Notes under the pieces: generated by a model
What the model saw: the letters and a program-made list of their open reading frames with translations, nothing else
What the model was told of the DNA's origin: nothing
Database searches by the model: none
Translations under genes and position numbers: made by a program
In this document: positions 1 through 41,886 of the stretch, piece by piece
Layout of the letters: each line of letters starts with the position of its first letter
Numbering within the stretch: position 1 is the first letter of the stretch
Assembly: GCA_024636585.1 (NCBI GenBank)
Contig: JAGXGS010000034.1
Coordinates: 1 to 64,000, forward strand
Source of the DNA: Thiogranum sp.
GTDB lineage: Bacteria > Pseudomonadota > Gammaproteobacteria > DSM-19610
DNA length: 64,000 nucleotides
Reading direction: 5' to 3'

Positions 1-39
1 CCACAGTAACCATTCCATATCCTGGCCTCCTCGAACTGC

Positions 40-786
40 TTAGCGGTACTTGACGAACGCGTCGTCGGTGTACTTGCTGAAATCAACCATGGTGCCCAGC
101 ACCTGCAGATACGCAATCAACGCATCCAGCTCGGAAATACCCGAACGATCGCCGTCGTAATTACCAAAGTTGGCTTGCTCAAGCAGGTTTTTCTGCGCGT
201 CCGGGATGTGCAGCTGACGTGCCACGGTTTCACCAAACTTGACTACGTTAGCGTCGAATTCAGCCTGTGTCAGTGAATACGGCACCCCCACTTTACGCAA
301 CGCCTTCATCCGCGCAGCGGTGTCGGAAATATCCAACGGCGTCGACAGCAGCCAGGGGTAATTCGGCATGACCGACTCGGGCACCATGGAACGTGGCGCG
401 ACCAAATGCTGAACGTGCCATTCGTTTGAATACTTGGCGCCTACGCGTGCCAGATCTGGGCCAGTACGCTTGGAACCCCACTGGAAAGGGTGATCGTATT
501 GTGATTCGGCTGCCAGCGAATAATGGCCATAGCGCAGTTTCTCGTCGCGGAACGGGCGAATCATCTGCGAGTGACACAGATAGCAGCCTTCACGCGTATA
601 GATATCGCGACCACGCTGCTCCAGCGGCGTATAGGGGCGTACGCCCTCGACTTTTTCGATTGTCTTGTCGATGAAAAACAGCGGTGCGATTTCCACCAGA
701 CCGCCCACGCTGATCGCCAGCATGGTCAACACGGCCATCAGGCCAATGTTGGTTTCAATCCATTCGTGTTTGAAATTGAAGTTCAT
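40..786 (-). CDS. ccoO: cbb3-type cytochrome c oxidase subunit II
   Basis: 248 aa; [23 protein letters not shown] haem c motif (CxxCH) and N-terminal TM helix typical of CcoO. Confidence 0.95.
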
Positions 787-802
787 TATGATTTTCCCTG
801 AA

Positions 803-2257
803 TCAGGCGGTTGCCAACTTGGCAGTCAGCTTGGCTTCCAGAATCGCGTTCTCGCGCTTGCCCTGACGGATGGTCATGAACATGTTGAACGTCATCAGCA
901 CAGTACCGGCGAGGAAGAACATGCCGCCGATCGCGCGCATTGCGTAGAAGGGCATCATGGCCGCGACAGATTCGGCAAACGAGAATTTAAGGTTGCCGAA
1001 CTCATCGAAGGTGCGCCACATCAAACCTTGTGTGATACCGGATATCCACATCGCAACGATATAAAGAATGATGCCGACGGTGGCGAGCCAGAAGTGCCAT
1101 TCGATCAGTTTCTGACTATAAATTTTGGTGTCCCATAGTTTGGGCATCATGTGATACAGCGAGCCAAACGTGATCATCGCCACCCAACCCAGCGCGCCGG
1201 AGTGCACGTGACCGATGGTCCAGTCCGTGTAGTGCGACAGCGCGTTGACTTCTTTCAGCGACATCATCGGGCCTTCAAAGGTCGACATGCCGTAGAACGA
1301 CAGCGCAACAATCATGAAACGCATGATCGGATCGGTACGCAATTTGTCCCAGGCACCCGACAAGGTCATGATGCCGTTGATCATGCCGCCCCATGAGGGC
1401 ATCAGCAGCAGGATCGAGAAGGCAGCGGCCAGCGACGAGGTCCAGTCCGGCAGCGCTGTCCAGTGCAGGTGGTGAGCACCCACCCACATGTACATGAAGC
1501 CCAGTGCCCAGAAGTGAACGATCGACAGGCGATAGGAGTAGATCGGGCGGCCGGCCTGCTTGGGCACGAAGTAATACATCATGCCGAGGAACGCCGCGGT
1601 AAGGAAGAAACCAACCGCGTTATGGCCGTACCACCACTGCGTCATCGCATCCTGAACGCCGGAAAACAGGCTGTAGGATTTCATCGACAGCAAGTCGATG
1701 GGCATTGCCAGGTTGTTGAACGTGTGCAGCAGCGCGGTCGCCAGGATAAATGCCAGGTAGAACCAGTTTGCGACGTAAATGTGCGGTTGCTTGCGGCGCA
1801 TGATGGTCCCGACGAACAGGATCAAATAGGCCACCCACACCACCTCGATCAACAGGTCGATCGGCCATTCCATTTCTGCGTATTCACGCGCCTGGGTGTA
1901 ACCCAGCACATAGCTGATATCAGCCAGCACAATAATGGCCATCCAACCCCAGAAAGTGAAGCTGGCCATTCCATCCGACATCAACCGGGTCTGGCAGGTT
2001 CGCTGCACGACGTAATAGGAGGTGGCAAACAAAGCCGAGCCACCGAAGCCGAAAATCACCGAAGTGGTATGGACGGGGCGAAAGCGGCCAAATGAGAAGT
2101 AAGGGCTGTCAAAGTTCAGAAATGGCCAAGCCAGTTCGGAGGCGATATAGACACCGACAAACATGCCGACCACCGCCCAAACCAGCGACATGACGGCAAA
2201 TTTCTTAACAATATCAAAGTTGTACTGCTCCGCACCGGAATACGAGGTTACCGCCAT
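803..2257 (-). CDS. ccoN: cbb3-type cytochrome c oxidase subunit I
   Basis: 484 aa polytopic protein; [86 protein letters not shown] motifs. Confidence 0.96.
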
Positions 2258-2377
2258 GACCGCTCCTGTTGACCCTGCAAAAGCGCTTATGGCTGCGTCT
2301 TTAACAGTATATGCTTATATTAAAAAACTGCGGAATTATATGCCAGCACCCCTGACATCTGCAAGACCAAGCCTGCC

Positions 2378-2968
2378 TTAAGACGAGGACAACAGGATTT
2401 TCAAGTCGTGGGCAATCGTCTCGGGGCTACTGCCATAAGGCATTAACAGTCGTAATCGGCCTTGTGGATCATAAATATAGGTTCCGGCGCTATGGTCGAT
2501 CAAATAATCGTCCGCGCCCTTTACCGAAGTCTTTTGATAGACCACTTTGTACTCATGCGCCAACTGCTTCAAGCCCTCTGTATCGGTATACATTCCCAAA
2601 AACCCGGGATTAAAGGCCGGCACAAATTGCTTTAGCAGGTCGGGGGTATCCCGTTGCGGATCCAACGTCACAAAAATGACTTGCACCTGTTCCGCTTCGG
2701 GTCCCAACTGTTTGAGCGCGGTTGAGAAGTCCGACAAGGTCGTCGGGCAAACATCCGGGCAGTGGATATAACCAAAAAAAACCGCTACGACCTTGCCCTT
2801 GAAATCAGCCAAGCTACGGACTGCTCCGTTGTGATCAGTCAGCTTGAAGTTACGCGCGAAATCGGCGCCCGTAATATCCGTTGCCTGAAAAGCGGGGGGG
2901 GCTGCGGGCATACACCCATTCAGTCCAAGCACAACCAGGGTTACCGCCGCAGCGAGCCACCGTCTCAT
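2378..2968 (-). CDS. SCO1/SenC family copper chaperone, lipoprotein
   Basis: GYIHCPDVCPTTL (CxxxC) and distal LIDHSAG His; N-terminal lipobox-like LNGCM. Confidence 0.93.
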   Translation of the reverse strand: MRRWLAAAVTLVVLGLNGCMPAAPPAFQATDITGADFARNFKLTDHNGAVRSLADFKGKVVAVFFGYIHCPDVCPTTLSDFSTALKQLGPEAEQVQVIFVTLDPQRDTPDLLKQFVPAFNPGFLGMYTDTEGLKQLAHEYKVVYQKTSVKGADDYLIDHSAGTYIYDPQGRLRLLMPYGSSPETIAHDLKILLSSS

Positions 2969-3429
2969 GGCCGGAGCTGGTCGAACAGCTGGCCGGGCAC
3001 ATCAGCCAAGCGGTATTTGCCTGATTCAACAGCTTTTGCCAGTTTTTCGAGCGTAGTGTCCTGTAGCAGGTCCATGATTTTCTTCTTCACCGGGATCCAG
3101 CGAAAATGCAATGGGCAAGCGGTTTCATCACTACAAACCTTTAAACCCAACAAACAGCTTTGGGTAAACACAGGGCCTTCGGTCAACAGAAGGATCTGCA
3201 TGAGATTGATTTTGTCACCACTTTCCCGGAGGCAGAAGCCACCCAGACGGCCGCGAAAGGAAAACAGCAGATTGCCTTTGGCCAGGCTCTGGAGAATTTT
3301 AGCCAGATAAGGCGCAGGCACCCCAAGCTGGGAGGCGATGTCCTTGTTCAGGACTGGCGTCGCGTTGGGCTGGGTCGCCATATAGATCAGCGCCTGTACG
3401 GCGTACTGACTGGTACGTGAAAGAATCAT
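2965..3429 (-). CDS. Rrf2-family transcriptional regulator, probable Fe-S cluster sensor
   Basis: MILSRTSQYAVQALIYMA wHTH start; three clustered Cys SCLLGLKVCSDETACPLH; 4-nt overlap with the SCO gene. Confidence 0.9.
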   Translation of the reverse strand: MILSRTSQYAVQALIYMATQPNATPVLNKDIASQLGVPAPYLAKILQSLAKGNLLFSFRGRLGGFCLRESGDKINLMQILLLTEGPVFTQSCLLGLKVCSDETACPLHFRWIPVKKKIMDLLQDTTLEKLAKAVESGKYRLADVPGQLFDQLRP

Positions 3430-3512
3430 CTTGCGCTCGGGTTAACGGGTTGAGCACAATATAAAACAATCTTGTCTGAATATCCAGAAATCCGCTCAAT
3501 TACCCATAAGAA

Positions 3513-4409
3513 TCAGATGGGTATCGGGAAGTAGTGATCGACCAGCATGACGCCGAACAACAAACTCAAGTGCCAGATGGAAAAGCGGAACGTTTCTTTC
3601 GCCAGCTCATCGCTGTACTTTCGGTATAAGCGCCAGCCGTAATGAATAAACCGTCCGCCCAGCAACACCGCGCCGATCAAATAAATCCAGCCCCCCATGC
3701 CCGTACCGACAGGCAACATGGTCACGGCAAACAAGAGCACGGTGTAGAGCAACACATGGAGGCGTGTATAGGCTTCACCATGTGTCACCGGCAGCATGGG
3801 CAGCCCGGCCTTGGCATATTCTTCGCGTCGATACAACGCAAGCGCCCAGAAATGCGGGGGCGTCCAGGCGAAGATAATCAGGAACAACAGCAAGGCATCA
3901 TGGTGGATTTCACCCGTTGCAGCGACCCAGCCCAACACCGGTGGCATCGCACCGGAGGCCCCGCCAATGACTATATTTTGCGGGGTGGCCGGTTTAAGAA
4001 TGATCGTGTAAATCACGGCATATCCGACAAACGTCGCCAGCGTAAGCCACATGGTGAGCGGATTGACGTAATAGTTCAGCAAAAACAGGCCCGCGCCCCC
4101 CACCACACCGGAGAAAAGCAGTGTTTGGGTATTAGTCAATTCGCCGCGCGGTAACGGCCTGGCACGTGTACGGGCCATTACAGCATCGATTTTCTGTTCC
4201 ACCAGACAATTGAACGCCGCAGCTGCACCCGCAACCAGCGCGATGCCGAGCGTACCTGCCCATAAAGTATTCCAACTTGGCAAACCGGGCACCGCGAGAA
4301 ACATGCCAATCACGGCCGTGAAGACAATCAGGCTTACCACGCGCAATTTGCACAGGGCTAAAAACTGCTGGCAACGACAGGCTGCCCCCTGAATCAACAA
4401 CGATTCCAT
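3513..4409 (-). CDS. ctaB: protohaem IX farnesyltransferase
   Basis: UbiA-fold polytopic protein with [25 protein letters not shown] and DHYFPIPI C-terminus. Confidence 0.95.
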
Positions 4410-4411
4410 AC

Positions 4412-5395
4412 TTATCTCCTGCGAACCCGATGGTTCAATATCACCAGGCTCGATAGTAAAAGTGCAGCACCCGCGTTATGCGCCACCGCCAGTGCCAGCG
4501 GCAAGCTCAGCAATACATTGCTGATGCCAAGCGTAACCTGCAACAACAGCGCCATACAGATCATCAGCCCCATTCCGGCATACCCCGGCGTACGAAAAAG
4601 ACGCAGCGCCAACCATGCCAGATACACAGTCACAATCAATGCCATGAGCCGATGGACCCAATGGATAGCCGTTAATGCGGTCAACGGCAACAACTCACCC
4701 GATGCTGTTTCTCCCAGTTCGCGGTGCAGGGTAAAAGCATGTTCGAAATTCATTACCGGCACCCATGCTGCCTGACACATTGGGAAGTCCGTGCATGCCA
4801 GTGCGGCGTAGTTAGTGCTCACCCATCCGCCCAGCGCAATCTGCACCACGACCAGAATCAAACCCAGTAATGCGCCAACACGCAGATGATCAACGCGCGC
4901 GTAATAGGCATGCGCATTACGGTTGCGTTCTTTCAACCACAACCACAAAAGCAAAGAAAGCGTTGCCATCCCACCAAGCAAATGAGCACTGACAATCAAT
5001 GGCTTGAGCAATTTGGTTACCGTCCACATGCCCAACAAGGCTTGGAACACGATCAACCCCAGTAATAGTACAGGCAACCCTATACCCGCACTCGTCTCAC
5101 GTCGGTTACGCCAAGCCAACATCACGATAGCCAGAATCAGCAGACCCAAAGCCCCGGCAAAATACCGATGGATCATTTCCTTCCATGCCTTGGCGTGTGA
5201 TACAGGTCCATCGGGACGCGTTGCCAACTCAGCATTGATTGATTCTGCAGCCAGGTGCGGTGTGATGCTTCCATAGCATCCCGGCCAGTCAGGACACCCC
5301 AGTCCCGCATCGGAAAGCCGAACGTAAGCGCCCAAGCTGACAACCCCGAAAGTCAGAATGAGTGCCACTAAAATAAGATTGCGATACATCGTCAT
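4412..5395 (-). CDS. ctaA: haem A synthase (COX15/CtaA family)
   Basis: [49 protein letters not shown]. Confidence 0.95.
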
Positions 5396-5396
5396 G

Positions 5397-5960
5397 TCAG
5401 CCGACCTGTGAGGCCTTGAGTAACAATTTGAGGTCTTTCATGATGCCTTTGGGGTTGGGGTTCTCGGGGAATCGGAGCATCAGATTACCCAGCGGATCAA
5501 TCAGATAAATATGGCTAGCGCGATTTTCCCCGGCAGGGAATTGCTCAGTGAAAGCCGTGTTTTCAGGACGCCACACATGCAAGCCAGGGTGTTCCTGCAA
5601 AAGCGTGGCATCCGGTGTGGCGCCATCCGTCAGCACCCACAAACGTTCTATCCGGTATTGCCCCTTGCCCTGGGTAATGCGTGTTTGACGCATCAGGTAC
5701 AGTTGCTTCGCACAATCCGTACCACACGCTGCTGGCCCTACATGCACCATCACCCATTTCCCTTGCAAATCATCCAGGCTAAAGGGCTGGCCATCGAGAC
5801 CAGCCCCCTGCGTGTGCTGCAAGGGCGCAGCTTTTAACAATTCCCCATAATTGGAATGCGTGGCCGGTCGCCAACTGAAGTAGGCCATATAAGCTAAAGC
5901 CACCGGCACCACAAATACGCCGACCAACATCACAAATTTACTGCGCGAAGACAATTTCAT
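5397..5960 (-). CDS. cytochrome oxidase-associated thioredoxin-fold (SCO-like) membrane protein
   Basis: 187 aa, N-terminal TM, GPAACGTDCAKQLYLMRQTR (CxxxC), YLIDPLGNLMLRFPENPNPKGIMKDLKLLLK; lies inside the cta assembly block. Confidence 0.8.
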   Translation of the reverse strand: MKLSSRSKFVMLVGVFVVPVALAYMAYFSWRPATHSNYGELLKAAPLQHTQGAGLDGQPFSLDDLQGKWVMVHVGPAACGTDCAKQLYLMRQTRITQGKGQYRIERLWVLTDGATPDATLLQEHPGLHVWRPENTAFTEQFPAGENRASHIYLIDPLGNLMLRFPENPNPKGIMKDLKLLLKASQVG

Positions 5961-5988
5961 ACTTTACTCATTCCCGACATCGGACTCA

Positions 5989-6726
5989 TCACCTGTCATC
6001 GTCACGATGACGTTTCACATTCAAGACCAACCACAACACCGTCAGCGTCGCCGCCAGACTGTACCACTGGAAGGCGTAGCTGACATGCATGCCAACGCCC
6101 GTATCGGGGCGTGGCCAGTCCCGCACCAACCCATCCTCCATCTGATTGCTCTGGAGCAACAAAACGGGTTGCAAGCTTGCACTGTAGTTTGCTGCAAACT
6201 GCTCAAAATTCAGATTTTGCCAAACCCGTCCCTTCGAAGTGCCATGCACCAGTTCGACATAGCGACTATGCGGGTCCGTCGCCACGCCAACCAGCTTGAC
6301 CACGCCTTGCGGTGCTGGCGTCCGGGGAAGCAGATCCCGGCTACGCCCGGTTGCGACCCACCCACGATTTACCAAGATGGCAAGCTGGCTACCTTGTATT
6401 TTAAATGGGGTCAGCACGTGATAGCCTGCCACCCCGTTGTACACCCGGTTATCCAACAAAATAGTTTGGGCATCGTCAAACGTGCCTTCCACTTCCACGC
6501 GACGGTACAACACGCTGTCGCGATCAAGCAGCGTGCTGCCAACCTGGATGATTTCTGCTTCCAGGGCCGCATCGAAGCGCGCCTGCAGGGCGCGCTTGGT
6601 GTCTGCACGTTCGCTTTGCCAATTGCCCAGCCACAGGGTCAGCACAAAGAAAAATAGCGCGGCCAGCGTCGGCCACACGGTTGGGGCAAATCTCCACTTG
6701 CCCAGTCTTAGTTTCAGCAAGTGCAC
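5989..6726 (-). CDS. SURF1 family cytochrome oxidase assembly protein
   Basis: LGNWQSERADTKRALQARFDAAL...VLLDNRVYNGVAGYHVLTPF...ILVNRGWVA; ORF is open to 6990 but a GTG start near 6726 gives the normal SURF1 N-terminus. Confidence 0.9.
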   Translation of the reverse strand: MHLLKLRLGKWRFAPTVWPTLAALFFFVLTLWLGNWQSERADTKRALQARFDAALEAEIIQVGSTLLDRDSVLYRRVEVEGTFDDAQTILLDNRVYNGVAGYHVLTPFKIQGSQLAILVNRGWVATGRSRDLLPRTPAPQGVVKLVGVATDPHSRYVELVHGTSKGRVWQNLNFEQFAANYSASLQPVLLLQSNQMEDGLVRDWPRPDTGVGMHVSYAFQWYSLAATLTVLWLVLNVKRHRDDDR

Positions 6727-6774
6727 GCTTACCGTAATCCGGATAAACTGAATTTTTGTTGAGCGGATATTTTC

Positions 6775-6975
6775 ATGCGAATTCTTGCTTTGCTGTTCAT
6801 CGTCTTCATTCTCGCCAGCCTTGCCAGTGCCCTCTACTATCTCATCAAGGACAAAGGTCAGTCCGATCGCGCTGTTAAAATGCTGACCATACGCGTAGGC
6901 CTTTCCCTCACCTTGTTCATTCTGCTGATGGGTGGGTATTACCTGGGGATCATCCCACAAACCGGACTGCGCTAA
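6775..6975 (+). CDS. twin-transmembrane DUF2909 family protein
   Basis: 66 aa with two hydrophobic helices; MRILALLFIVFILASLASALYYLIKDKG. Confidence 0.8.
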   Translation: MRILALLFIVFILASLASALYYLIKDKGQSDRAVKMLTIRVGLSLTLFILLMGGYYLGIIPQTGLR

Positions 6976-6987
6976 CCCGATGCTCAT

Positions 6988-7026
6988 CACAACAAAAAGC
7001 CGCGCTAGACGCGGCTTTTTGTTGTG
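6988..7026. terminator. bidirectional intrinsic terminator
   Basis: Perfect 17-bp inverted repeat CACAACAAAAAGCCGCG-CTAGA-CGCGGCTTTTTGTTGTG between convergent DUF2909 and ctaE. Confidence 0.92.
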
Positions 7027-7071
7027 CCGGGGCTATATATTCATAACCCCGGATTGACTCAATTTAATGGC

Positions 7072-7938
7072 TTATATCAACCAGTAAACCAGGATAAACA
7101 ACATCACCCAAACTACATCGACAAAGTGCCAATACCACGATACGGCCTCAAAAGCGAAGTGATGTTCAGCCGTGAAATGGCCGGCAATCGAACGCAGCAG
7201 CATAACAATCAGCATGATCGTACCGACCAACACATGGAAGCCATGGAAGCCTGTCAGCATGAAGAACGTTGCACCATACACACCTGCACCCAAGGTCAAA
7301 CCCATTTCAGTGTACGCATGGTTGTATTCATAGGCTTGCAGCCCAAGAAACACGACACCCAGCGCAACCGTCATTGCCAGACCCAGAATTAACTGGCTGC
7401 GCTTACTCTTTTTGAGGCCCCAATGTGCCCAGGTCACGGTTACACCCGAGGTTAACAGCAACAGCGTGTTGATTGCCGGCAAACCCCACGCGCCCATTGG
7501 AGTGAACTGGAATCCATCCGCAGTCAAACCAGGACCCGCGGTCGGCCAGGCTGCCTTGAAAGCAGGCCAAAGCTGCTCCATCGTGTCTGACTCACCCAAC
7601 CAGGGGACTGAGAGCATGCGGGTGTAGAACAACGCACCAAAAAAAGCTGCGAAGAACATCACCTCGGAAAAGATAAACCAGCTCATCGACCAGCGGAACG
7701 ATGAGTCAACCTGCTTGTTAAATCGGCCTGCTTCGCTGTCGCGAATCACCTCGCTGAACCAGCCGATCATCATGTAAATCATGACCGCCAACCCAGCGAG
7801 AAGTATCCAGCCGCCATTGTCGATCTCGCGCATGACCATCACACCGCCAATAGCCATCAAGAACAGTGCGAACGAGCCTATGATCGGCCAGAGCGAAGGT
7901 TGCGGCAGATAATATTTTTCAGTTTGTGCCAAACTCAT
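7072..7938 (-). CDS. ctaE: cytochrome c oxidase subunit III
   Basis: MSLAQTEKYYLPQPSLWPIIGSFALF...FHGFHVLVGTIMLIV...HFAFEAVSWYWHFVDVVWVMLFILVYW. Confidence 0.96.
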   Translation of the reverse strand: MSLAQTEKYYLPQPSLWPIIGSFALFLMAIGGVMVMREIDNGGWILLAGLAVMIYMMIGWFSEVIRDSEAGRFNKQVDSSFRWSMSWFIFSEVMFFAAFFGALFYTRMLSVPWLGESDTMEQLWPAFKAAWPTAGPGLTADGFQFTPMGAWGLPAINTLLLLTSGVTVTWAHWGLKKSKRSQLILGLAMTVALGVVFLGLQAYEYNHAYTEMGLTLGAGVYGATFFMLTGFHGFHVLVGTIMLIVMLLRSIAGHFTAEHHFAFEAVSWYWHFVDVVWVMLFILVYWLI

Positions 7939-7969
7939 GTCTTCCCCTTTTTCCTTATTTAATGATTCT

Positions 7970-8167
7970 TCATTTCACAAACTTCAGCACCAAATACACA
8001 ACCAGCAGTATGGTCAGAATAAATGTCACACCACCGATCAGCCCTGCAATGACGACCTGTGCAGGGGTTAAATCCTGCGCATCGCTGTCGTAATCACGCC
8101 GTTTACGCACACCCAAAAAACTCCAGAAAACAGCCAGTGCGGCTTTCAGATTGCTTCTTTCAGCCAC
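7970..8167 (-). CDS. DUF2970 family small membrane protein
   Basis: AERSNLKAALAVFWSFLGVRKRRDYDSDAQDLTPAQVVIAGLIGGVTFILTILLVVYLVLKFV; GTG start at 8167 overlaps the ctaG stop (longer ORF to 8218 is less likely). Confidence 0.75.
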   Translation of the reverse strand: MAERSNLKAALAVFWSFLGVRKRRDYDSDAQDLTPAQVVIAGLIGGVTFILTILLVVYLVLKFVK

Positions 8168-8714
8168 GCGGCAAGTCCTTCTGAAGCTCGGTGGTCTTTG
8201 CCTGCGCTCCGGTGTCAAAAAACGTATACGACAAGGTCACAGTGTTTACATCTTTATCCATTGAAGGGTCCAATACAAACAGCACCGGCATGCGGCGGCG
8301 TTCTCCTGCTGCCAGGGTTTGCGGTGTAAAACAAAAACATTCAATTTTTTTGAAGAACGCTCCAGCACGCCTCGGCCCATAACTGGGTACGGCTTGCCCA
8401 ACTATTGCGCGATCACTTGTGTTGACCACTTCGTAATCCACTTGCACCAACTGACCCGGATGGACTTTCATGATGCGTTGAGCGGGCTTGAACTGCCAAG
8501 GCATCCCGGCGTTCGTGTTTGCATCAAACTCCAGTGTCACCCAACGACTGGTATCAACCTGCGTATTCTTGACCAGCACCTGTTCCGCACCCGAGTTGAT
8601 TCCCGTCACTTCACATATTTTGTAATAGAAGGGAACCAGGGCAAAACCAAACCCGAACATCATCAATGACACAACAAAAAGCTTGGTCAGGGTTGTGGCA
8701 TTGCCCAGCGCCAT
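8160..8714 (-). CDS. ctaG: cytochrome c oxidase assembly protein (Cox11/CtaG)
   Basis: FGFALVPFYYKICEVTGI, FKKIECFCFTPQTLAAGERRRMPVLFVLDP. Confidence 0.94.
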   Translation of the reverse strand: MALGNATTLTKLFVVSLMMFGFGFALVPFYYKICEVTGINSGAEQVLVKNTQVDTSRWVTLEFDANTNAGMPWQFKPAQRIMKVHPGQLVQVDYEVVNTSDRAIVGQAVPSYGPRRAGAFFKKIECFCFTPQTLAAGERRRMPVLFVLDPSMDKDVNTVTLSYTFFDTGAQAKTTELQKDLPRG

Positions 8715-8716
8715 TT

Positions 8717-8815
8717 TTATTTCAGTCCGGAATACAGGGTGAACAAAAAGAGCCCCAGGGCGAACACAGCCAGCAATATTGCTGTACGCGCCTTGGAATG
8801 TCGCTTGTCTGTCAT
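8717..8815 (-). CDS. 32-aa single-TM cytochrome oxidase small assembly-type protein
   Basis: Translated by hand: MTDKRHSKARTAILLAVFALGLFLFTLYSGLK*; sits in the 106-nt gap between ctaG and ctaD; below the ORF track length cut-off. Confidence 0.65.
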   Translation of the reverse strand: MTDKRHSKARTAILLAVFALGLFLFTLYSGLK

Positions 8816-8820
8816 GGCGC

Positions 8821-10395
8821 TCACTTCACCACCGGTGCGGTTTCGAAGGTGTGATAAGGCGCAGGCGATGGAACCGTCCACTCCAGACCTTCAGCGCCTT
8901 CCCAAACCTGGGCGGTGGCTTTCTCACCGCCTTTAATCGCTTTCATGACCACAATCAAAAATATCAATTGACTGAAGCCGAACATAAACGCGCCCACAGT
9001 GGCAATCTGGTTGAACTCGGTAAATTGAAGCGCGTAATCAGGAATACGGCGCGGCATACCAGCCAGACCCAGGAAGTGCATCGGGAAGAACACGATATTC
9101 ATGCCGATAACCGACAACCAGAAGTGCCATTTACCGAGCGTCTCGTTGTACATGTGACCGGTCCACTTCGGCAGCCAGTAGTAGATTCCAGCGAAGATCG
9201 AGAACAAGGCACCCGAAACCAGCACGTAGTGGAAGTGTGCCACCACGTAATAGGTGTCATGCAACTGGATGTCGACCGGCGCGATCGCCAGGACCAGACC
9301 TGAGAAGCCGCCAATCGTAAACAGACAAACAAAGGCAATAGCGAACAGCATGGGCGTCTCGAAAGTCATTGAGCCTTTCCACATGGTGGCGACCCAGTTA
9401 AACACTTTCACTCCGGTCGGCACTGCGATCAACATGGTGGAGAACATGAAGAACAACTGTGCGGTGACCGGCATGCCCACCGTGAACATATGGTGCGCCC
9501 ACACAATGAAAGACAGCACGGCGATCGATGCGGTAGCGTAGACCATTGAGGCATAACCAAACAACGGTTTGCGCGCAAAGGTCGGGATGACTTGCGAGAC
9601 GATACCGAAAGCCGGCAGAATCAGGATGTAGACCTCGGGGTGAGCAAAGAACCAGAAGATGTGCTGGAACATCACCGGATCACCGCCGCCTGCCGCATTG
9701 AAGAAGTGCGTGCCGAAGTTGCGGTCGGTCAGCAGCATGGTCACCGCACCGGCCAGCACCGGCATAACCGCGATCAGCAGGTAAGCGGTGATCAGCCAGG
9801 TCCAGACGAACAGCGGCATCTTCATCAGGGTCATGCCAGGCGCGCGCATGTTGACGATGGTCACTACGATGTTGATGGCGCCCATGATGGAGGAAATACC
9901 CATCAGATGGACCGCGAAGATCAGGAACGGAAAGGCGTTCCCGGTCTGCAGCACCAGCGGCGGATACATGGTCCAGCCGCCGGCCGGCGCACCGCCTTCC
10001 ATGAACAGCGTTGACAGCAGCATGGCGAAGGCAAAGGGCAGAATCCAGAAACTCCAGTTATTCATGCGTGGCAACGCCATGTCCGGCGCACCGATCATCA
10101 TCGGCACCAACCAGTTGGCAAGCCCGACGAAGCCCGGCATTACGGCACCGAAAATCATGATCAGCGCATGCATGGTTGTCATGGAATTGAAGAACTGCGG
10201 CTGCACGAACTGCAGACCCGGCTCGAAAAGTTCGGCACGGATGATCATTGCCATCGCGCCACCGACCATGAACATCAGCAGCGAGAACAGCAGGTAAAGT
10301 GTGCCGATGTCTTTGTGATTGGTCGTGAACACCCAGCGCATCAAGCCGCTGCGCTGTTCTTCGTGATGTGCGTCGTGTGTTGTTGCTGTACTCAT
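8821..10395 (-). CDS. ctaD: cytochrome c oxidase subunit I
   Basis: [56 protein letters not shown]. Confidence 0.97.
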
Positions 10396-10414
10396 TACTT
10401 CTCCTCCACGACCC

Positions 10415-11542
10415 TTAACGGGCAGCCTCTACATCCGAGGGTTGAACCAGGTCACCGGTGTCGTTACCCCAGGCATTACGCTCATAGGTCACTACCGCGG
10501 CAATATCGATGTCGTTGAGCTGACCGGCAAATGCCGCCATAGCGGTGCCTGGCTTGCCGTTCATCACCATGTCAAGGTGCGCTTCTATCGGGCCTGTCGC
10601 TATCGGACTGCCCACCAGACCGGGGAATGCCCCCGGAACACCCGCACCGCTGACCTGGTGACAGGCCGCACATGCGGTGTTGTAGACGTTCTCGCCCCGC
10701 GTCATCAGTTCGTCCTGCGCCCACTCCCGGTCGGCCGCCGACGCATCCGCATCGGCGGCGGATTTCTGCGCCTGCATCCAGGCGTCGAAATCGGCATCAT
10801 TTTTTGCCACCACGACGATCGGCATGAAACCGTGGTCCTTGCCGCACAATTCCGCGCACTGGCCGCGATACACGCCCTCTTCCTGGACATTGATCCACAT
10901 TTCGTTGATGTAACCCGGAATGGCGTCTTTCTTCATGCCCAGCTCGGGAACCCACCAGGCATGAATGACGTCGTTGGCGGTGATCAGCAGGCGCACCTTC
11001 TTGTTGACCGGCACCACCAACGGATTGTCGACTTCCAGCAGATAGTTGTCGCCCTTGCCCTGGCGGTTGTAGATCTGGTCCTGAGGCGTAGACAGGGAAC
11101 TGATGAAACTGACGCCGTCGTCAATATAGTCGTAGCCCCATTTCCACTGATAGCCCGTCACCTTGATGCTGAGATCGGAGTTGGTAGTGTCTTCCATGGC
11201 GACCAGTGCCTTGGTCGCGGGTATCGCCATACCGGCGAGGATAAGGAACGGGACGATCGTCCAGACGATTTCCACCAGAGTACTCTCATGAAACTGGGCC
11301 GGCTTGGCGCCTCTCGACTTGCGATGGTAGATAATGGAAATGAACATCGCACCGAAAACCACGACAGCGATCGCCACGCACACCCAGAGAACCAGCATGT
11401 GCAGGTCATAGGCATCCTGGCTGATCGGCGTAACGCCGCGCGGTAGATTCAATCCGTACTCGGCGGACACGGCAGCTCCGTATAACGCGGCTGCGCCTCC
11501 GCTTATCGCCGTTAGCGTTCGTCTAACTATGGTTAACCACAT
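10415..11542 (-). CDS. ctaC: cytochrome c oxidase subunit II with fused C-terminal cytochrome c domain (caa3-type)
   Basis: CuA site [17 protein letters not shown] plus C-terminal [24 protein letters not shown]; start set at MWLTIVRR (11542) behind a GAAGGAGAG SD. Confidence 0.94.
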
Positions 11543-12168
11543 GCCAACATCTCTCCTTCCCACTCCCGGATACTCGAATTCTTTTATGTCAAAGAACCAG
11601 TCGGCCCTTCCACTCGTGCGCCTGTGGCAGGCATTTAAAAACCACACACAGCCAGGCTTTTTTTGTCATCTGCCCAAATAAGCCTTTTTCTGAACCAGCA
11701 GGTTCTATTGATAAGCGCGTAGCCGGGCGCTGTTTTCGACCCCCGGGATCGATGCCGCCGCGTACGCTGGGGCGCATGCTACCTCAGCGATTGGAAAGGG
11801 TGCAAAAAAATTTGAAATTTGCGGTCATAAAAACTTGCTATATCAGATATTTACAAAACAATATATTAGAATATTTTAAATAACTGAATTATGAAAACAT
11901 GCCTTGTCAGCAGGCCATTGCTATCGGCGATAAATGCCAAACAGTTATTGTTTTTCATAACGTTATTCTGGCATAAGCCGCCAATGACGAGGCACCCATG
12001 ACGGAACCGTTGCCAACCTTGACAAGATAACCTGTCGAAATCTGACGAGCGTCTGTAACTTCCCGTTAATCAATAGCTAATTCTCAAGTTGTGCAGCTGT
12101 CCGCCGACCATGGAGAGTTGATCCACAGCCTTCCGGAGCGTCTTCTCCGGTACCGAGGGAGGGCAGAC

Positions 12169-19194: not shown

Positions 19195-19785
19195 CTACAA
19201 TCGCGCTGGCGCCCGGTTCGCGGCGGTCAGAAAAACCTCCGTGACCAGCAGCGGTTTACCCCCGACCCTGAAGACTGAACGTCGCCCCCAGATTTCTTCG
19301 GGCTGGCTGGTCAGGTTCGCCACCGCACGCGCATACATCGCGCGCTTTCTATTGAGTGGCGCAAGCTCGACAACCCCTCGCGACATGGAGGGATCAGCAA
19401 ACAGAAAGGCACCCAGTGGACGGTTTCCGAGGTGAGCGAGGCGACGCTGCGGGCCACTGAGCGTCGTCACCGGCATCACGGTGCGGGCGAACACCCAGGG
19501 GCGCCCATCGCAGAGCAACTGGACTTCGCGAACCCAGGCGGCACGCGCCACTGGAATCCCCAGCGCCCGCGCTTCATCGAGTCGCGGCCGCTGCCATCCC
19601 TGATGCAATACCCGTACGCCGAAACAACCGGCACAGGCCTGCTTCACGCGGTCGGTCAGCGATCCGGAGTCGAGCAGCCAGGGCCGCAATTCCGGCGGAA
19701 TACGGCTGCGTAGCCAGCGCGGGTAAGGAGCCCACGCGGGCACGCTGACAGGGCGATCGGGAGCAGGCAATTTAAACGATTCCAC
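19195..19785 (-). CDS. ubiC: chorismate pyruvate-lyase
   Basis: [29 protein letters not shown]...[21 protein letters not shown]; adjacent to ubiA; GTG start near 19785 is approximate. Confidence 0.85.
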
Positions 19786-19937
19786 GTTCAGCAAAAGGCG
19801 GATTATGGCACAGCCGGCGGATCGGTTTTTGTTGACACAGTTCGCAGAACCGGTGGGACCGAGTGTGAAGTAGCTCGCGGAATCGTTTTGCCCCGCCAGT
19901 AGACTGCTATGCAAATCATTCCGCCAGGAGATTTCCG

Positions 19938-21449
19938 ATGGATCAATACGCAATAATAAACGAGCAGTTTTCTGACCACTTGCAGCGCGCGGCCCAGAGA
20001 CTGCGGCGCACTCTCGAACGCTCGGCAGCCTTGCGCTCATCTCTGATGGTTGCGCTGAACGCGGGCGGGTGCCTGCTGCTGCTATCGCCGGTACTGATTG
20101 CAGCTGGATTCATGAGTACAGCGGTTTTGATTGCGAATAATATCCAGGGCCCGCTGGACTGGTTCCTGCTTGGGGTGTGCGCGGCATTAAGTTTAGTGGC
20201 CGGCTGGATGTGTTATCAGCTTTCTACACTGCATCCCGATGCCGCTGACGGCGTTACGCTCGATGCAGATCAGGAGTCCCGGCTGTTCCCGATGCTCGAG
20301 CGCCGCCTGACGCACTTCAAGCTGAAGCCTTTGAACAGTGTAAGACTTGGCACCGATACTGATCTGACCATAGTGGCGACTCCGCGCTGGCCGATTCCAC
20401 TGCTGCACTCGTACACTCTCAATGTCGGAGCGCCCCTGCTGTTTTTCATTTCCGAGCCTCAGTTTCGACTGGCGCTGGCCGGAGCAGTGGCAACCAGCGC
20501 GCAATCGCGTCGCAGTCTTTTCGGCTGGGCAGCACAGGCAGTCCGCGACTGGCCCGTCATTATCCATAGCCTGGAACAGAAATCCGTGCTCGCAACCCAG
20601 CTGCTCCTGCCTGTGGCCCGCTGGATAGCGGCAGCCAACCGGACACTCGGCTACACAGTCGAAACGGGCATGTTGCAGGCGCAGACCCGCTGGATTCTCA
20701 ACCATACCGATGAGCAGACCGCGCGTGAGCTGCTGAGTTGTCAGGTGCTCGCATCGTCTTTCATCAACTGGCATTACTGGCCCATGATGCTCAAGGGTGC
20801 AGATCACTGCCCACAGCCGGTAGCGCGTCCGTTCAGTCACTTCGACCTGCTGCTTAAAGGAAGCTTCACGGAAAATGCGGCACGCCGCTGGCTGCTCAAA
20901 GCGCAGGCCGGCTCCGGCAGCAGTCAGCGCATCCTGCAGAATCTGCTTGCCGAACTAAAGATCGATTTCCTGCAGTGTCCCGCCCTACCGGAACGCACTG
21001 CCTTCGAATGCATTATCGAGACAAAAACTATGCTGAAGAAACTGGATCAGCACTGGCAGCGATGCATCACGCCTGACTGGCATCAGCGGTACGCTGAATT
21101 CCAGGCTGCGAAAAACCGCTTTGACCAGTTGCACAGACGCTCGCAGGAACAGGACCTGCGCGGCAGTTCAGCAATCAATTTCGTGCGTCTGGCCCGGCGG
21201 TTTCTGGACAAGCAGCAAAATATTAGTGTGTTCCGGAAAATGTATCGTGCCAATCCGGATGATGCGGCGGTGTGCTTTACCTGCGGAGAGGCGATGCTCG
21301 CAGCGGGACATACGCTGGAGGGGTGCGACGCCATGCAGCGCGCCGGAGAACTCGATGCGAGACTGGCGAACCATGCACAGGCCCTGATCAACCAGTACAC
21401 ACACAGCTGGCTGGACGAATCGCGGTCGGGACTGGCGCGCACCGCCTGA
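19938..21449 (+). CDS. M48-like membrane protein with TPR-like C-terminus, HExxH motif absent
   Basis: 503 aa; LNVGAPLLFFISEPQFRLALAGAVATSAQSRRSLFGWAAQAVRDW matches the spacing of M48 'GLPLL..LS..EL.AVLAHEFGH' segments but lacks HExxH; TPR-like tail NPDDAAVCFTCGEAMLAAGHTLEGCDAMQRAGELD. Confidence 0.6.
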   Translation: MDQYAIINEQFSDHLQRAAQRLRRTLERSAALRSSLMVALNAGGCLLLLSPVLIAAGFMSTAVLIANNIQGPLDWFLLGVCAALSLVAGWMCYQLSTLHPDAADGVTLDADQESRLFPMLERRLTHFKLKPLNSVRLGTDTDLTIVATPRWPIPLLHSYTLNVGAPLLFFISEPQFRLALAGAVATSAQSRRSLFGWAAQAVRDWPVIIHSLEQKSVLATQLLLPVARWIAAANRTLGYTVETGMLQAQTRWILNHTDEQTARELLSCQVLASSFINWHYWPMMLKGADHCPQPVARPFSHFDLLLKGSFTENAARRWLLKAQAGSGSSQRILQNLLAELKIDFLQCPALPERTAFECIIETKTMLKKLDQHWQRCITPDWHQRYAEFQAAKNRFDQLHRRSQEQDLRGSSAINFVRLARRFLDKQQNISVFRKMYRANPDDAAVCFTCGEAMLAAGHTLEGCDAMQRAGELDARLANHAQALINQYTHSWLDESRSGLARTA

Positions 21450-21463: not shown

Positions 21464-23557
21464 CTAAACGCCTCCGTAGCGGGCCATACGACCAAGCCAA
21501 CGCCGTATCACCGGCTGCACACTTTCGGCGCAATGACGCGCAAGATAATCAGCCGCCTGCTCCACCTTGTCCAACAGGTCCTGATCCCGCAACAGATCGG
21601 CAATCCGGAACTGGATCATCCCGGTCTGGCGAGTGCCGAGCACCTCTCCAGGTCCGCGCAGCTCCAGGTCACGGCGCGCAATCTCAAAGCCGTCACTGGT
21701 TTCGCGCAGCACCGCCAGGCGCTGGCGCGCCAGCGCTGACAGAGGCGCCCGGTACATCAGCACGCAGCTGCTTTGTGCCGCCCCCCGCCCGACCCTGCCA
21801 CGCAACTGGTGCAATTGCGCGAGGCCGAGACGCTCGGCATTTTCGACAATCATCAGCGATGCATTCGGCACGTCCACGCCGACCTCGATGACCGTGGTTG
21901 CCACCAGCAAATCCACTTCACCACGCTTGAACGCGTCCATACACTGCTGCTTGTCTGCATCTTTCATGCGGCCGTGCACGAGTCCGACCCTGAGTTCATC
22001 GAGTGCTTCACGCAGTAGCACAGCAGTGTCTTCTGCTGCCTGACATTGCAGTGATTCCGACTCCTCGATCAGCGTACAGACCCAATAGGCCTGAAGGCCT
22101 TTACGGCAGGCTTCGCGGACTCGCTGAATCACTTCGGCGCGCCGGCCGTCAGGCAGAGCAACCGTATGCACAGGGATTCTCCCCGGGGGCATTTCATCGA
22201 TCACCGATGAATCCAGATCTGCATACACAGACATCGCCAGCGTGCGGGGTATCGGCGTTGCCGTCATGATCAACTGATGCGGCAGCAGCTGCTTTTCACG
22301 CCCTTTGTCCCGAAGCGCCAGGCGCTGGTGAACGCCGAAACGGTGCTGCTCGTCAATAATGACCAGCCCCAGCTGCCGAAATACCACATCGTCCTGGAAC
22401 AGCGCATGAGTGCCAATCACGACCTGCGCCTCACCGGATTGCAATGCCGCCAGTACCGTGCCACGCGGCTTGCCTTTCACTTTCCCCGACAACCAGGCCA
22501 CCTGAATATCCAGACACCCGAACCAGGTAGCGAAATTGCGAAAATGCTGTTCCGCCAGCAGCTCGGTGGGAGCCATGATTGCGACCTGACAGCCACTTGC
22601 GACAGCCTGGATCGCAGCAGCAGCCGCCACGACGGTTTTGCCCGAGCCGACGTCGCCCTGAACCAGCCGCATCATCGGGTGCGAGCGCACAAGATCATGC
22701 TGCAGCTCGGCCAGGACCCGTTGCTGGGCGGCCGTCAGGGCAAACGGCAGCGCCGCCAGGAAGCGTTCCAGCAATGCCTGCCCGCCGTGCAGCGGCATGG
22801 CGCTGTGGCGTTCTGCACGCTGGCGCATTGCCTTGAGACTGAGATGGTGCGCAAGCATTTCCTCGAACGCCAGTCGCTGCTGCGCCGGGTGGGTGCCCGC
22901 TTCCAGCGCGGCAAGATCAGCGTTCGGCGGAGGCCGGTGCACGTACTGCAAGGCCGAATGCAGATCACTCAGCTGCAGATCATCGAGAAGCGTGGCGGGT
23001 AACCATTCGGGCAAGCGACTGGTCTCCAGCAGCGCCAGCGCCTGGTCGCTGAGCTTGCGCAAGGCCAGCTGGTGCACGCCTTCGGTAGTGGGATAAATGG
23101 CAGTCAACTGCTCATCGACAGGACGGTTTTCACTTTCTTCCAGTCGCTGGTATTCCGGATGCACCATTTCCAGCATCACCGGGCCGCGCCGGACTTCACC
23201 AAAGATCCGCACCCGGGCGCCGCGCTCGAAGCCCTGTTGCTGAAGTTTGTTGAAATGGAAAAACCTCAGCAGCAGCGATCCGCTGCCATCGCTGACCCGC
23301 ACCAGCAGGCTGCGGCGTCGGCCAAACTTGATTTCAGCGAGATCCACAACCGCATCGATGACAGCCCGATCGCCGGGGCGCAATCCGCCGATCGGCATGA
23401 CGCGTGTGCGGTCTTCGTAACGCCGCGGCAGATGAAACAGAACGTCCTGCACGCTTTCAATCCCGAAAGCGGCCAGCCGGGCTGTCGCCCTGGGACCGAC
23501 TCCGCGCAATGCGGACACCGGCAGCGCATCCAGGGTTGGTGGCGATTGTTCCTGCAA
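21464..23557 (-). CDS. recG: ATP-dependent DNA helicase RecG
   Basis: LVQGDVGSGKTVVAAAAA, IIDEQHRFGVHQR, TATPIPRTLAMSVYADLDSSVIDEMPPGR, QLRGRVGRG. Confidence 0.97.
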   Translation of the reverse strand: MQEQSPPTLDALPVSALRGVGPRATARLAAFGIESVQDVLFHLPRRYEDRTRVMPIGGLRPGDRAVIDAVVDLAEIKFGRRRSLLVRVSDGSGSLLLRFFHFNKLQQQGFERGARVRIFGEVRRGPVMLEMVHPEYQRLEESENRPVDEQLTAIYPTTEGVHQLALRKLSDQALALLETSRLPEWLPATLLDDLQLSDLHSALQYVHRPPPNADLAALEAGTHPAQQRLAFEEMLAHHLSLKAMRQRAERHSAMPLHGGQALLERFLAALPFALTAAQQRVLAELQHDLVRSHPMMRLVQGDVGSGKTVVAAAAAIQAVASGCQVAIMAPTELLAEQHFRNFATWFGCLDIQVAWLSGKVKGKPRGTVLAALQSGEAQVVIGTHALFQDDVVFRQLGLVIIDEQHRFGVHQRLALRDKGREKQLLPHQLIMTATPIPRTLAMSVYADLDSSVIDEMPPGRIPVHTVALPDGRRAEVIQRVREACRKGLQAYWVCTLIEESESLQCQAAEDTAVLLREALDELRVGLVHGRMKDADKQQCMDAFKRGEVDLLVATTVIEVGVDVPNASLMIVENAERLGLAQLHQLRGRVGRGAAQSSCVLMYRAPLSALARQRLAVLRETSDGFEIARRDLELRGPGEVLGTRQTGMIQFRIADLLRDQDLLDKVEQAADYLARHCAESVQPVIRRWLGRMARYGGV

Positions 23558-34614: not shown

Positions 34615-34689
34615 TCGGGAATCACCTGCACAGCCGGGCTGGATTTCGGTAACATTATCCCTTTGTCACAGGACTGCAACGGCACCATC

Positions 34690-36171
34690 ATGAGCTCCCT
34701 GCCTCGCCGAATGCCTCTCGTCCGCCTGATCAGGCTGGCGCTTTTTCTTGCGGTGCTGATGCACATGTCCGGATGCGCGACCAACCCTGTAACCGGGGGA
34801 CCAGATTTTGTGCTCATGTCCGAACCCGAGGAGCTCGCCCTCGGCGCCCGCTATCATCAGCAGATCATCAAGGAGATGCCGGTCTATCCCGATCAGAAGC
34901 TGGCATCTTATGTTGATAACATTGGTCAACGTCTTGCCCGGGAAAGTCATCGGCCACAGCTCGCTTATCAGTTCACTGTCCTCGACAGCACCCAGGTCAA
35001 CGCTTTCGCGCTGCCGGGCGGTTATATCTATATAACCCGCGGTCTGCTCGCGTATCTCAACTCGGAAGCCGAACTCGCTGCTGTGCTGGGCCACGAAATC
35101 GGCCATGTAACGGCACGTCACTCGGTACGCCAGCACAGCGCCACGACTGCCGCGGGAATGGCTGGCATTCTTTTGCAGGCCACTACCGGGATCAGTGGGT
35201 CACAAGATCTGTTCAATGTAGCCGGCAAGGCCATCTTGAGTGGCTATGGACGCGAGCACGAGCTGGAGTCCGACCGGCTCGGCGCTCAGTATCTGGCGCG
35301 CAGCGGCTACAGCCCGAATGCCATGCTCGACGTGATTGGTGTGCTGAAAAACCAGGAGCTGATTGAAAACGAGCGCGCCCGGGAGCAGGGGCGAGAGCCG
35401 CGCGCATATCATGGCGTATTCGCGAGCCATCCCGAAAATGATCGCCGGCTACAGGAAGTGATTGGTGAAGCTGAACAATTGAAAACGACCTCAGTCACTC
35501 GGATTGGGCGAAGTGAATTCCTGGCGCATATCGATGGCCTGGCATTTGGCGACAGCGAAAGTGAAGGGATGGTGCGTAACAACACCTTTCTGCACAGGCC
35601 CCTCGATTTCGGCCTCGATGTCCCCGAGCGATGGAGAATCGAGAACCTTCCGGATCAATTACTGATCATTGCCCCGCAGGAAGCTGCATTCATGCAAATC
35701 AAGGTGGACTCCGACTCCGGGGAACACCCCCCCCGGCAATATCTTGCGGAGAAGGGCGTCAGGAATCTACGCAACGCTGAGCCTCTGGATATAAAAGGCT
35801 TACCAGCCTATACGGGCGAAGCAGCTGTAACGACTAACAAAGGCGAACGCCAGGCACGCGTTGCAGCACTGCGCGATGGCAAGCAAACTTTCCTGTTCAC
35901 AGGTGTCAGCCGCAGCGATCAGAATTTTAGCCAGCACGATAAAGTCTTTCTGGAAATACTGCACAGTTACCACAAGCTCGATCCCCGGGAACAGGAACTG
36001 GCGAAAGGCTTGCGCCTGAAGATTATAAAACCCGATAGCGGCGCCCGCTTCGCGGATCTTGCTCGACGATCACCAATTGAAAATCACGCCGAAGCAGAAC
36101 TTCGTCTTCTCAACAGCCAGTATCCGGTCGGAGAGCCTCGCGCCGGTGAATCAATCAAAGTGGTGCGTTAG
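34690..36171 (+). CDS. M48 family metalloprotease, lipoprotein, BepA/YfgC-like
   Basis: Lipobox HMSGCATNP; AAVLGHEIGHVTARHSVRQ (HExxH) and ELESDRLGAQYL. Confidence 0.9.
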   Translation: MSSLPRRMPLVRLIRLALFLAVLMHMSGCATNPVTGGPDFVLMSEPEELALGARYHQQIIKEMPVYPDQKLASYVDNIGQRLARESHRPQLAYQFTVLDSTQVNAFALPGGYIYITRGLLAYLNSEAELAAVLGHEIGHVTARHSVRQHSATTAAGMAGILLQATTGISGSQDLFNVAGKAILSGYGREHELESDRLGAQYLARSGYSPNAMLDVIGVLKNQELIENERAREQGREPRAYHGVFASHPENDRRLQEVIGEAEQLKTTSVTRIGRSEFLAHIDGLAFGDSESEGMVRNNTFLHRPLDFGLDVPERWRIENLPDQLLIIAPQEAAFMQIKVDSDSGEHPPRQYLAEKGVRNLRNAEPLDIKGLPAYTGEAAVTTNKGERQARVAALRDGKQTFLFTGVSRSDQNFSQHDKVFLEILHSYHKLDPREQELAKGLRLKIIKPDSGARFADLARRSPIENHAEAELRLLNSQYPVGEPRAGESIKVVR

Positions 36172-39284: not shown

Positions 39285-41774
39285 CTAGAAAAGCGGGTCC
39301 GTGGCCGTGTCATTGGGAACGCCGCCATTACCGGCACCACCAGCAGCAGAATCGCTGTATTCTTCCGGCACCGTCTCGGCCTTGAACAGTTCGAACAGGC
39401 CATCCCCCTGCCCCGACCGCAAGCGCAGGCCGGTTCTGGGATCGATACGCACTGTAACTAGCCCCTGAGGCTGCGGCGGCGGCATCTCCGGCACGCCCTG
39501 CAAGGCCGTGCTCATGTAATCGATCCACATCGGCAATGCTGCATGGCCACCTGTTTCCCCGCTGCCTAATGGTTGAGCGCTGTCGAAACCGACCCAGACG
39601 GTTGTCACGAGGCTGGCGTTGTAACCACAAAACCAGGCATCACGCTGATCATTGGTCGTCCCGGTTTTTCCGGCCAGGTCGTTGCGCCCCAGTTGCATGG
39701 CGCGACGACCGGTCCCCCTTTTTATCACATCCTGCATCATCGAATTCATCAGGTAAGCGGTTTCTGCATCCACCACCCGCTCGGCATATACCGGCGGCGC
39801 ATCAGGCCGGGGCACCATCATGCCGGGCGGCACGTTCAGGACGGCAGTATGTTCTATCTCGCTCGGGGGTCCCGAAAGCTGCTCTGCGGGAATGCTCTCC
39901 AGTGCGTCAGGAGGTGACGTGCAATCGTGACAGGCGACCGGAGCATTGGCCTTCAGCACTACATTATTCCGTGCGTCTCGCACCTCCTCGATAAAATATG
40001 GTTCCACATAAAATCCTCCATTGGCCCAGACACTGTAGGCTCTGGCCATTTCGAGTGGAGTCGCCGTACCAGTGCCCAGGGCCAGCGATAAATCTTTTGG
40101 AATCCGCTCCGGCTGGAAACCAAAGCGCTGCACATACTGCGCCGCGTAAGGAGCACCAATTGCACGCAAAAGCCGTATCGAGACAAGGTTGCGTGAGCGC
40201 GTCAGTGCTTCGCGCATTCTGGTCGGGCCATAAAATTTGCCACTGTAATTTTCCGGTCGCCATGCAGTTTCCAGAGACGGATCATCAAAAACAACAGGTG
40301 CGTCATTAAAAATGCTTGCCAACGTGTAGCCCTTGGCTAACGCGGCGGCATAAATAAAAGGTTTAAAACTCGATCCGGGTTGACGCTGCGCCTGTACTGC
40401 ACGGTTAAACTTGCTTCGTGAAAAATCAAAACCGCCCGCCAGTGCCTGAATGGCTCCGTCCTGCGGTCGAAGCGAAACGAGCGCGCCCGTGACAGCAGGC
40501 ACCTGCGCCAGACTCCAACGGTTGTCGGACAGTCTTTCTACACGGATCAAGTCGCCGCCCCTAAACAACTGGCCAGCCGCTTCCGGCGCCTCGCCCCGGT
40601 GATTGGCCGAGATGTAAGTCCGTGCCCAGGATACTCCCTCCCAATCCAGTTCAGCAGGGCCATAACCTGCAACATGCAGCTTTGTTGATTGTCCCTCTAC
40701 AGCGACCACAATCGCTTCACGCAGCCCCCCCACAACCACGGAATGTTCCAGGATCCGCGCATAGTCCTGCTCAGTGGCCTGTTCATCGAGGTCGACATGG
40801 CCGGAGACACCTCGATACCCATGACGCCGATCATAATCAAGCAAAGTTCTTCGCAGTGCGGCATTAGCCGCCGTCTGGCGCTTTCCCTCGACTGTTGTGA
40901 CGACGCTATAGCCACCGATATATGCCTCGTCACCGAACTGATCGACCATGAAGCTCCTGACCATTTCAGCTACATAAGGTGCCTCTATCTCAGCCGGATT
41001 CCGATGCAGCTTTGCCGTATCTTCCTGAGTCAATGCAGCACGGTATTGTTCAGCGTCAATGAACTCGAGGCTGTACATGCGCCCCAATACATAGTCGCGG
41101 CGTTGCAGCGCTCGCGCCGGGTTTGTGAGCGGATTATTTGTTGAAGGCGCTTTGGGCAAGCCCACTATCATGGCAATTTGCGGGAGATCGAGTTCGTTTA
41201 CCGGCACCCCATAATAAACCTGGGCAGCAGCGCCTATACCATAGGCCCGATGGCCGAAATAGATTTTGTTCAGATAGAGCTCGAGAATCTCCTGCTTGCT
41301 CAGATCACGCTCTATTTTCAGTGCCAGAAAGATTTCCGTAACCTTGCGTAAATAGGTTTTCTCGGCACTCAGGAAAAAGTTGCGAGCGACCTGCATGGTT
41401 ATGGTGCTCCCCCCCTGACGCTTCTCACCAGTCCGGATCAATTCCACGGCGGCACGTAGCAATCCCTGGTAATCCACCCCCGGATGCTCGAAAAAGCGTG
41501 CATCCTCGGATGCAAGAATTGCCTGGATGACCGGCTCGGGCAGGTCTTCATACCGGATGGGTGTCCGGTGCTGCTCTCCGAATTCTGCTATCAGCTCCAG
41601 ATCGCGCGAGTAAACCCGGAGCGGCACCTGCAGCTGCACGTCCTGTAGCCGATCAACATCCGGCAATTGAGGCGCGATATACAAATACACTGCGAGGACG
41701 GTCAGCACAGCGATCACGAGGGATGCAAAGCCTATCCCGAAAACAAGGCGCAGCGCTTTAAGAAGTGGTGTCAT
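39285..41774 (-). CDS. mrcA: penicillin-binding protein 1A
   Basis: GT51 ILASEDARFFEHPGVDYQGLLRA, GGSTITMQVARNFFLS; transpeptidase QPGSSFKPFIYAAAL, AGKTGTTNDQRDAWF. Confidence 0.96.
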   Translation of the reverse strand: MTPLLKALRLVFGIGFASLVIAVLTVLAVYLYIAPQLPDVDRLQDVQLQVPLRVYSRDLELIAEFGEQHRTPIRYEDLPEPVIQAILASEDARFFEHPGVDYQGLLRAAVELIRTGEKRQGGSTITMQVARNFFLSAEKTYLRKVTEIFLALKIERDLSKQEILELYLNKIYFGHRAYGIGAAAQVYYGVPVNELDLPQIAMIVGLPKAPSTNNPLTNPARALQRRDYVLGRMYSLEFIDAEQYRAALTQEDTAKLHRNPAEIEAPYVAEMVRSFMVDQFGDEAYIGGYSVVTTVEGKRQTAANAALRRTLLDYDRRHGYRGVSGHVDLDEQATEQDYARILEHSVVVGGLREAIVVAVEGQSTKLHVAGYGPAELDWEGVSWARTYISANHRGEAPEAAGQLFRGGDLIRVERLSDNRWSLAQVPAVTGALVSLRPQDGAIQALAGGFDFSRSKFNRAVQAQRQPGSSFKPFIYAAALAKGYTLASIFNDAPVVFDDPSLETAWRPENYSGKFYGPTRMREALTRSRNLVSIRLLRAIGAPYAAQYVQRFGFQPERIPKDLSLALGTGTATPLEMARAYSVWANGGFYVEPYFIEEVRDARNNVVLKANAPVACHDCTSPPDALESIPAEQLSGPPSEIEHTAVLNVPPGMMVPRPDAPPVYAERVVDAETAYLMNSMMQDVIKRGTGRRAMQLGRNDLAGKTGTTNDQRDAWFCGYNASLVTTVWVGFDSAQPLGSGETGGHAALPMWIDYMSTALQGVPEMPPPQPQGLVTVRIDPRTGLRLRSGQGDGLFELFKAETVPEEYSDSAAGGAGNGGVPNDTATDPLF

Positions 41775-41886
41775 AAATTTGGCAGGATGTGATCAAGTTC
41801 AAATTAAAAATCAATGGCATTCCTAAACTTCAGTATAAAGCTTCCGATACATGGAATCGAACCAAATACGATTGAAGAGCTCTTTG

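Follow-up and report, generated by a model that had tools for sequence, protein, structure and literature searches.

The gene at positions 19938–21449 (+ strand) of the window, the whole 64,000-nucleotide stretch of DNA analyzed here, would encode a membrane-anchored, TPR-bearing pseudoprotease, derived from M48 peptidases, whose role is to bind clients or to serve as an adaptor without cleavage. We assign this reading, taken as a whole, a probability of about 0.55. For the identity alone, that is, an M48-derived pseudoprotease, the sequence comparisons leave very little doubt, while we infer the client-binding or adaptor function by analogy with known M48 proteins.

Gene and protein organization

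The reading frame comprises 503 codons plus a stop and runs uninterrupted through 19938–21449 (+), confirming the intact gene of the sequence-only reading; the stretch quoted there as M48-like, LNVGAPLLFFISEPQFRLALAGAVATSAQSRRSLFGWAAQAVRDW, is present in the translation. An AGGAG ribosome-binding-like motif was read directly at 19926–19930 (+), 7 bases 5′ of the ATG, and a promoter scan of the + strand 5′ of the gene returned no promoter-like site. Hydropathy reveals two long hydrophobic segments, residues 34–67 and 73–95, within a putative membrane region (residues 34–96; 20037–20225, +) in which the AlphaFold model places helices at 30–48, 50–67, and 72–96. Furthermore, alignment and conservation delimit a conserved stretch that spans YWPM through PFSHF (residues 280–302; 20775–20843, +), and its FW/YW start is common to the paralogues and the active relatives. 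TPR-like helices are found at residues 409–472 (21162–21353, +), based on the model and on TPR matches, of which the weak match to Pfam TPR_19 (E 0.12) is the sole Pfam hint for this protein. Both the N-terminal membrane segments and the TPR-like C-terminus are therefore retained, as had been claimed.

The gene sits between the divergent ubiC-ubiA pair and the convergent genes recG, ridA, and spoT. Family matches identify ubiC (chorismate lyase; 19195–20040, −) and recG (21464–23557, −); the listed start of the ubiC frame is probably too far upstream because its family match begins at residue 112. The ubiC/ubiA and recG-ridA-spoT flanks recur in many genomes of the same genus. We found no neighbor shared across families; conservation of the neighborhood stops at the genus level and provides no functional link. 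Elsewhere in the window, an active-looking, BepA-like M48 protease is encoded at 34663–36171 (+), with HEIGH at 35092 and a match to Pfam PF01435 at E 1.8e-38, in agreement with the earlier mention of such a protein. The GC content is 0.53–0.55 at positions 1–12000 and 40001–44000 of the window and 0.55–0.63 in the rest of it.

Predicted structure

An AlphaFold2 model of the window protein, built with 18 sequences, has a mean pLDDT of 87.1 over the full protein, and a model of the isolated domain reaches 87.6. From the N-terminus, the full model is composed of hydrophobic helices (residues 30–96), a small strand-and-helix domain that includes the former zinc helix (173–192), long helices up to residue 289, and the TPR-like part from residue 409. 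Solved structures were searched with Foldseek using models of the window protein only. For the full model, TPR proteins dominated the matches and BepA ranked second (E 5e-3, TM-score 0.15–0.18), probably via its TPR part, and the isolated domain matched no M48 structure above noise. The M48 fold was not confirmed by these searches, and the claim of M48 descent rests on sequence comparison.

Descent from M48 proteases

To collect wider relatives, a profile was built from same-genus and same-family orthologues together with a shorter paralogue and was used in a class-wide search; the profiles were seeded from the window protein's own family, the start codons of relatives were set by rule, and the genome samples were drawn evenly rather than exhaustively. 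As a single query, the window protein found no relatives in the genome collection, whereas an alignment (A4) used as the query did. Its matches to same-genus orthologues lie in metagenome assemblies labeled Thiogranum, Thiohalobacter, or Gammaproteobacteria bacterium. Searches of Pfam and NCBIfam with the window protein likewise gave no M48 match, PF01435 not being reached, and a paralogue (L019) matches PF01435 at E 0.08 only.

Six relatives from the class-wide search carry HExxH, and the three of them that were scanned against PF01435 (L103, L106, and L108) all match this M48 family, at E 7.2e-16, 1.4e-12, and 1.4e-10, respectively. Profile-profile comparison of the orthologues (A1) with these six active relatives (A5) gave a probability of 100% and E 9.3e-44 over 467 columns. 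Similarly, a profile of the active relatives only (A5) retrieved the window gene as the top match in its own genome (E 1.1e-31), and a direct match (E 1.5e-4) was obtained even when a single active protein, L106 (HEFGH), was the query. After the membrane and TPR parts had been cut away, a profile of the active relatives' peptidase region still matched the window gene at E 1e-16, which excludes circularity through the TPR repeats; among 2000 shuffled sequences, the same profile matched none at E up to 10. The M48-like layout noticed at the outset therefore stands above chance. That an unrelated protein merely resembles M48 would fit the missing Pfam and NCBIfam matches and the missing fold match of the isolated domain, but the three profile comparisons (9.3e-44, 1.1e-31, and 1e-16), together with graded intermediates that still carry ELxAD, led us to reject this highly improbable explanation.

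Loss of the zinc motifs

The window protein has neither HExxH nor the third zinc ligand in E-x-x-x-D that mark active M48 enzymes in the alignment. The columns that hold HExxH in the six active relatives (L103 HEYGH, L106 HEFGH, L107 HELAH, L108 HEIGH, L109 HEYGH, and L110 HELGH) are occupied by GAVAT (residues 182–186; 20481–20495, +). The sequence-only reading had named AGAVA as the replacement; these letters are indeed present at residues 181–185 (20478–20492, +), but the aligned columns lie one residue further on. Each of the six active relatives has E-x-x-A-D opposite LQAQT of the window protein (residues 246–250; 20673–20687, +), in the columns of the third zinc ligand motif EYEAD; the earlier assignment of this region to MLQAQTRWI agrees within the alignment uncertainty. 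In other families of the class, inactive members mostly have R-(R/K/E)-x-(G/A)-(Q/K) in place of HExxH and often keep E-L-x-A-D, and in one inactive protein, L096 from genome G257, the sequence is REFGH, which differs from the active motif in the first histidine only. By this alignment, the window lineage has gone beyond most inactive members, having lost the ExxxD motif as well.

To estimate the age of the loss, orthologues were surveyed and found in 14 of the 16 other same-genus genomes and in three genomes of the same family, and none of these orthologues has HExxH, which bears out the uniform loss that had been put forward for checking. A tree calculated without the motif columns separates 15 active sequences from a single clade, supported at 100/100, that contains all 30 inactive ones, consistent with a single change, although several branches within the inactive clade are poorly resolved. 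Since the clade holds with these columns removed, circularity through the motif itself is excluded. Ten families of the class (f1, f56, f58, f65, f93, f101, f122, f124, f125, and f127) are represented among the inactive sequences, while the matches contributed by a phylum-wide sample are all active. Collectively, these comparisons indicate that the loss of HExxH is ancient and common to one clade across ten gammaproteobacterial families.

Active and inactive copies were found together in only one genome of the class sample, G257 (L226, HELGH, and L096, REFGH); in the other class-sample genomes with an inactive copy, the searches run detected no active subfamily member. Within the genus, the strong-scoring members are all inactive, and no active member of the subfamily was found in the window genome (G000, 83% complete). 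Two genomes, G111 and G231, contain three inactive copies each (L087, L090, L166, L186, L222, and L223), so the family has expanded there. The shorter paralogue is present in several same-genus genomes. Short members of the inactive clade that lack the TPR part (L123 and L124 of the same genus, L140 and L141 of family f58) adjoin lon, or the ppiD that ends lon-hupB-ppiD. In genome G004, an 825-aa frame beside the paralogue (L125:8251–10725, −) went unmatched in Pfam at E 1e-5 and may be spurious or an unknown protein.

Purifying selection

Pairwise dN/dS (Nei-Gojobori) was 0.096 for L002/L003, 0.22 for L014/L015, 0.163 for L007/L013, and 0.19 for L017/L018; in more distant pairs, such as the window gene and L002, synonymous sites are near saturation. 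These four closer pairs, at 0.10–0.22, are not near 1, the value named beforehand as the mark of simple decay. Moreover, the lowest-entropy 8-mer of the whole protein within the genus is QFRLALAG (residues 175–182), most of which lies on the former zinc helix as defined by the model and conservation (residues 173–192; 20454–20513, +), and the former ExxxD positions belong to the variable part of the alignment. The pseudoprotease is maintained by purifying selection, and the pattern is unlike decay. A functionless decaying pseudogene, to which the missing catalytic residues might point, is hardly credible given the 503-codon open frame, the presence of orthologues across the genus (14 of 16 other genomes), and conservation that is strongest over the former active-site helix, and it was rejected on the dN/dS values.

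Proposed function and alternatives

In the proposed mechanism, two N-terminal membrane segments would anchor a protein that has a C-terminal TPR-like part and whose peptidase-like domain lacks all zinc ligands and the catalytic glutamate. This domain probably faces the cytoplasm, with both termini cytoplasmic as in HtpX, an orientation suggested by the arginine-rich N-terminus and by the positive charges that many orthologues carry behind the second hydrophobic segment. The edge strand, which is retained, and the surface of the TPR part may together bind a polypeptide or partner, much as BepA does in its chaperone-like mode, the remodeled former zinc helix may now serve for packing or binding, and clients or partners would be held at the membrane without being cut. 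The candidate edge strand (residues 143–151; 20364–20390, +) is a strand in the model and aligns with FNAAIxQVP of the active relatives; where these read FNAAIxQVPR, the window protein has retained the strand as DLTIVATPR.

The kept strand and the TPR part, with BepA and RF1-Oma1 as precedents, are the grounds for proposing client or partner binding. In BepA, the edge strand beside the active site contacts LptD, promotes LptD assembly, and is needed for the chaperone-like function (PMC8423444), and the edge-strand role of residues 143–151 is proposed by analogy with this case. In the protease-dead E137Q mutant of BepA, the chaperone-like activity is weakened (PMC8423444), so that losing proteolysis is not without effect on this mode, a point against the proposed mechanism. 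In sugar beet, RF1-Oma1, which has HQVGH, binds preSATP6, whereas the copy with HExxH does not (PMC6894571).

The main rival, unlikely in our estimation yet deserving attention, is a decoy or regulatory partner. Such a protein would attach to an active protease, with HtpX, the BepA-like protein, FtsH, and Lon as examples, and set how active that protease is or how much substrate reaches it. In animals, inactive rhomboids act as such regulatory partners. The window genome does hold several active M48 proteins (6 matches), shorter paralogues lie beside lon in two genomes of the genus, and members from another family lie beside lon-hupB-ppiD. Inactive homologues that act on active cousins are also common (PMC11266112). 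However, no protease gene lies near the window gene, and the 83% complete genome shows no active member of its subfamily. Additionally, the position relative to lon differs by lineage, upstream of lon in one case and downstream of ppiD in the other, and lon is absent from the stretch examined at two of the four paralogue loci. A consistent lon link was therefore rejected, as it is present in two lineages but not consistently.

A bolder statement, which we regard as quite doubtful, is that one ancient inactivation event gave rise to a gammaproteobacterial M48 pseudoprotease family in which the former zinc helix became a new, strongly conserved binding or catalytic element with a function unseen in any M48 protein. 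Less probable again would be an M48 scaffold that has acquired a new chemistry or binds a ligand, such as a site for another metal or a small molecule built from residues outside HExxH. In its favor, the genus shows invariant or almost invariant histidines near 126, 157, and 301, and high constraint on the former zinc helix, but some of these histidines are missing from the same-family orthologues (L016–L018) and from the wider inactive clade, and the replacement helix is alanine-rich with no obvious ligand or catalytic side chains.

Comparison with known systems

The closest likeness of the putative client-binding protein is to the HtpX-type M48-TPR relatives of about 620 aa (L103, L106, L107, and L109), with which it shares the membrane segments, the sequence order of the peptidase domain, the FW/YW segment, and the TPR-like part. 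These relatives carry HExxH and EYEAD where the window protein reads GAVAT and LQAQT, and they exceed it in length by about 120 residues, most of them C-terminal. As in Escherichia coli BepA (PDB 6AIT), an M48-type domain is followed by a TPR part, here seen as helical repeats at 409–472 in the model and in the TPR matches, and the edge-strand function discussed above is that of BepA (PMC8423444). BepA, however, is periplasmic and catalytically active and has no membrane segments, whereas the window protein lacks the zinc motif, probably faces the cytosol, and is membrane-anchored through segments 34–67 and 73–95, which were assigned by hydropathy.

Similarly, RF1-Oma1, an M48 protein with an altered HExxH, has been kept in a role of binding another protein (PMC6894571); it is a plant gene duplicate with one motif residue changed, whereas the loss in the window clade is older, complete, and bacterial. 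FtsHi proteins, the M41 pseudoproteases of chloroplasts, also form a membrane-anchored family that was retained for function after losing HExxH (PMC11266112), but they belong to another peptidase family, carry an AAA+ ATPase domain, and reside in eukaryotic organelles.

Implications

Pseudoproteases are well known in eukaryotes. Among M48 proteins, a pseudoprotease is known from plants (PMC6894571), and a 2024 review of inactive metallopeptidases leaves M48 unmentioned (PMC11266112). In the open-access literature, with most subscription journals outside the scope, we found no description of a bacterial M48 pseudoprotease family or clade. The present proteins show that M48-derived members exist in genomes without being labeled by current family models. 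Because this clade apparently arose once, shows motif loss in steps, and still has living active relatives, it allows one to ask which M48 functions outlast proteolysis. BepA hints that M48-TPR proteins act as chaperones, and a naturally protease-free branch would test this idea directly.
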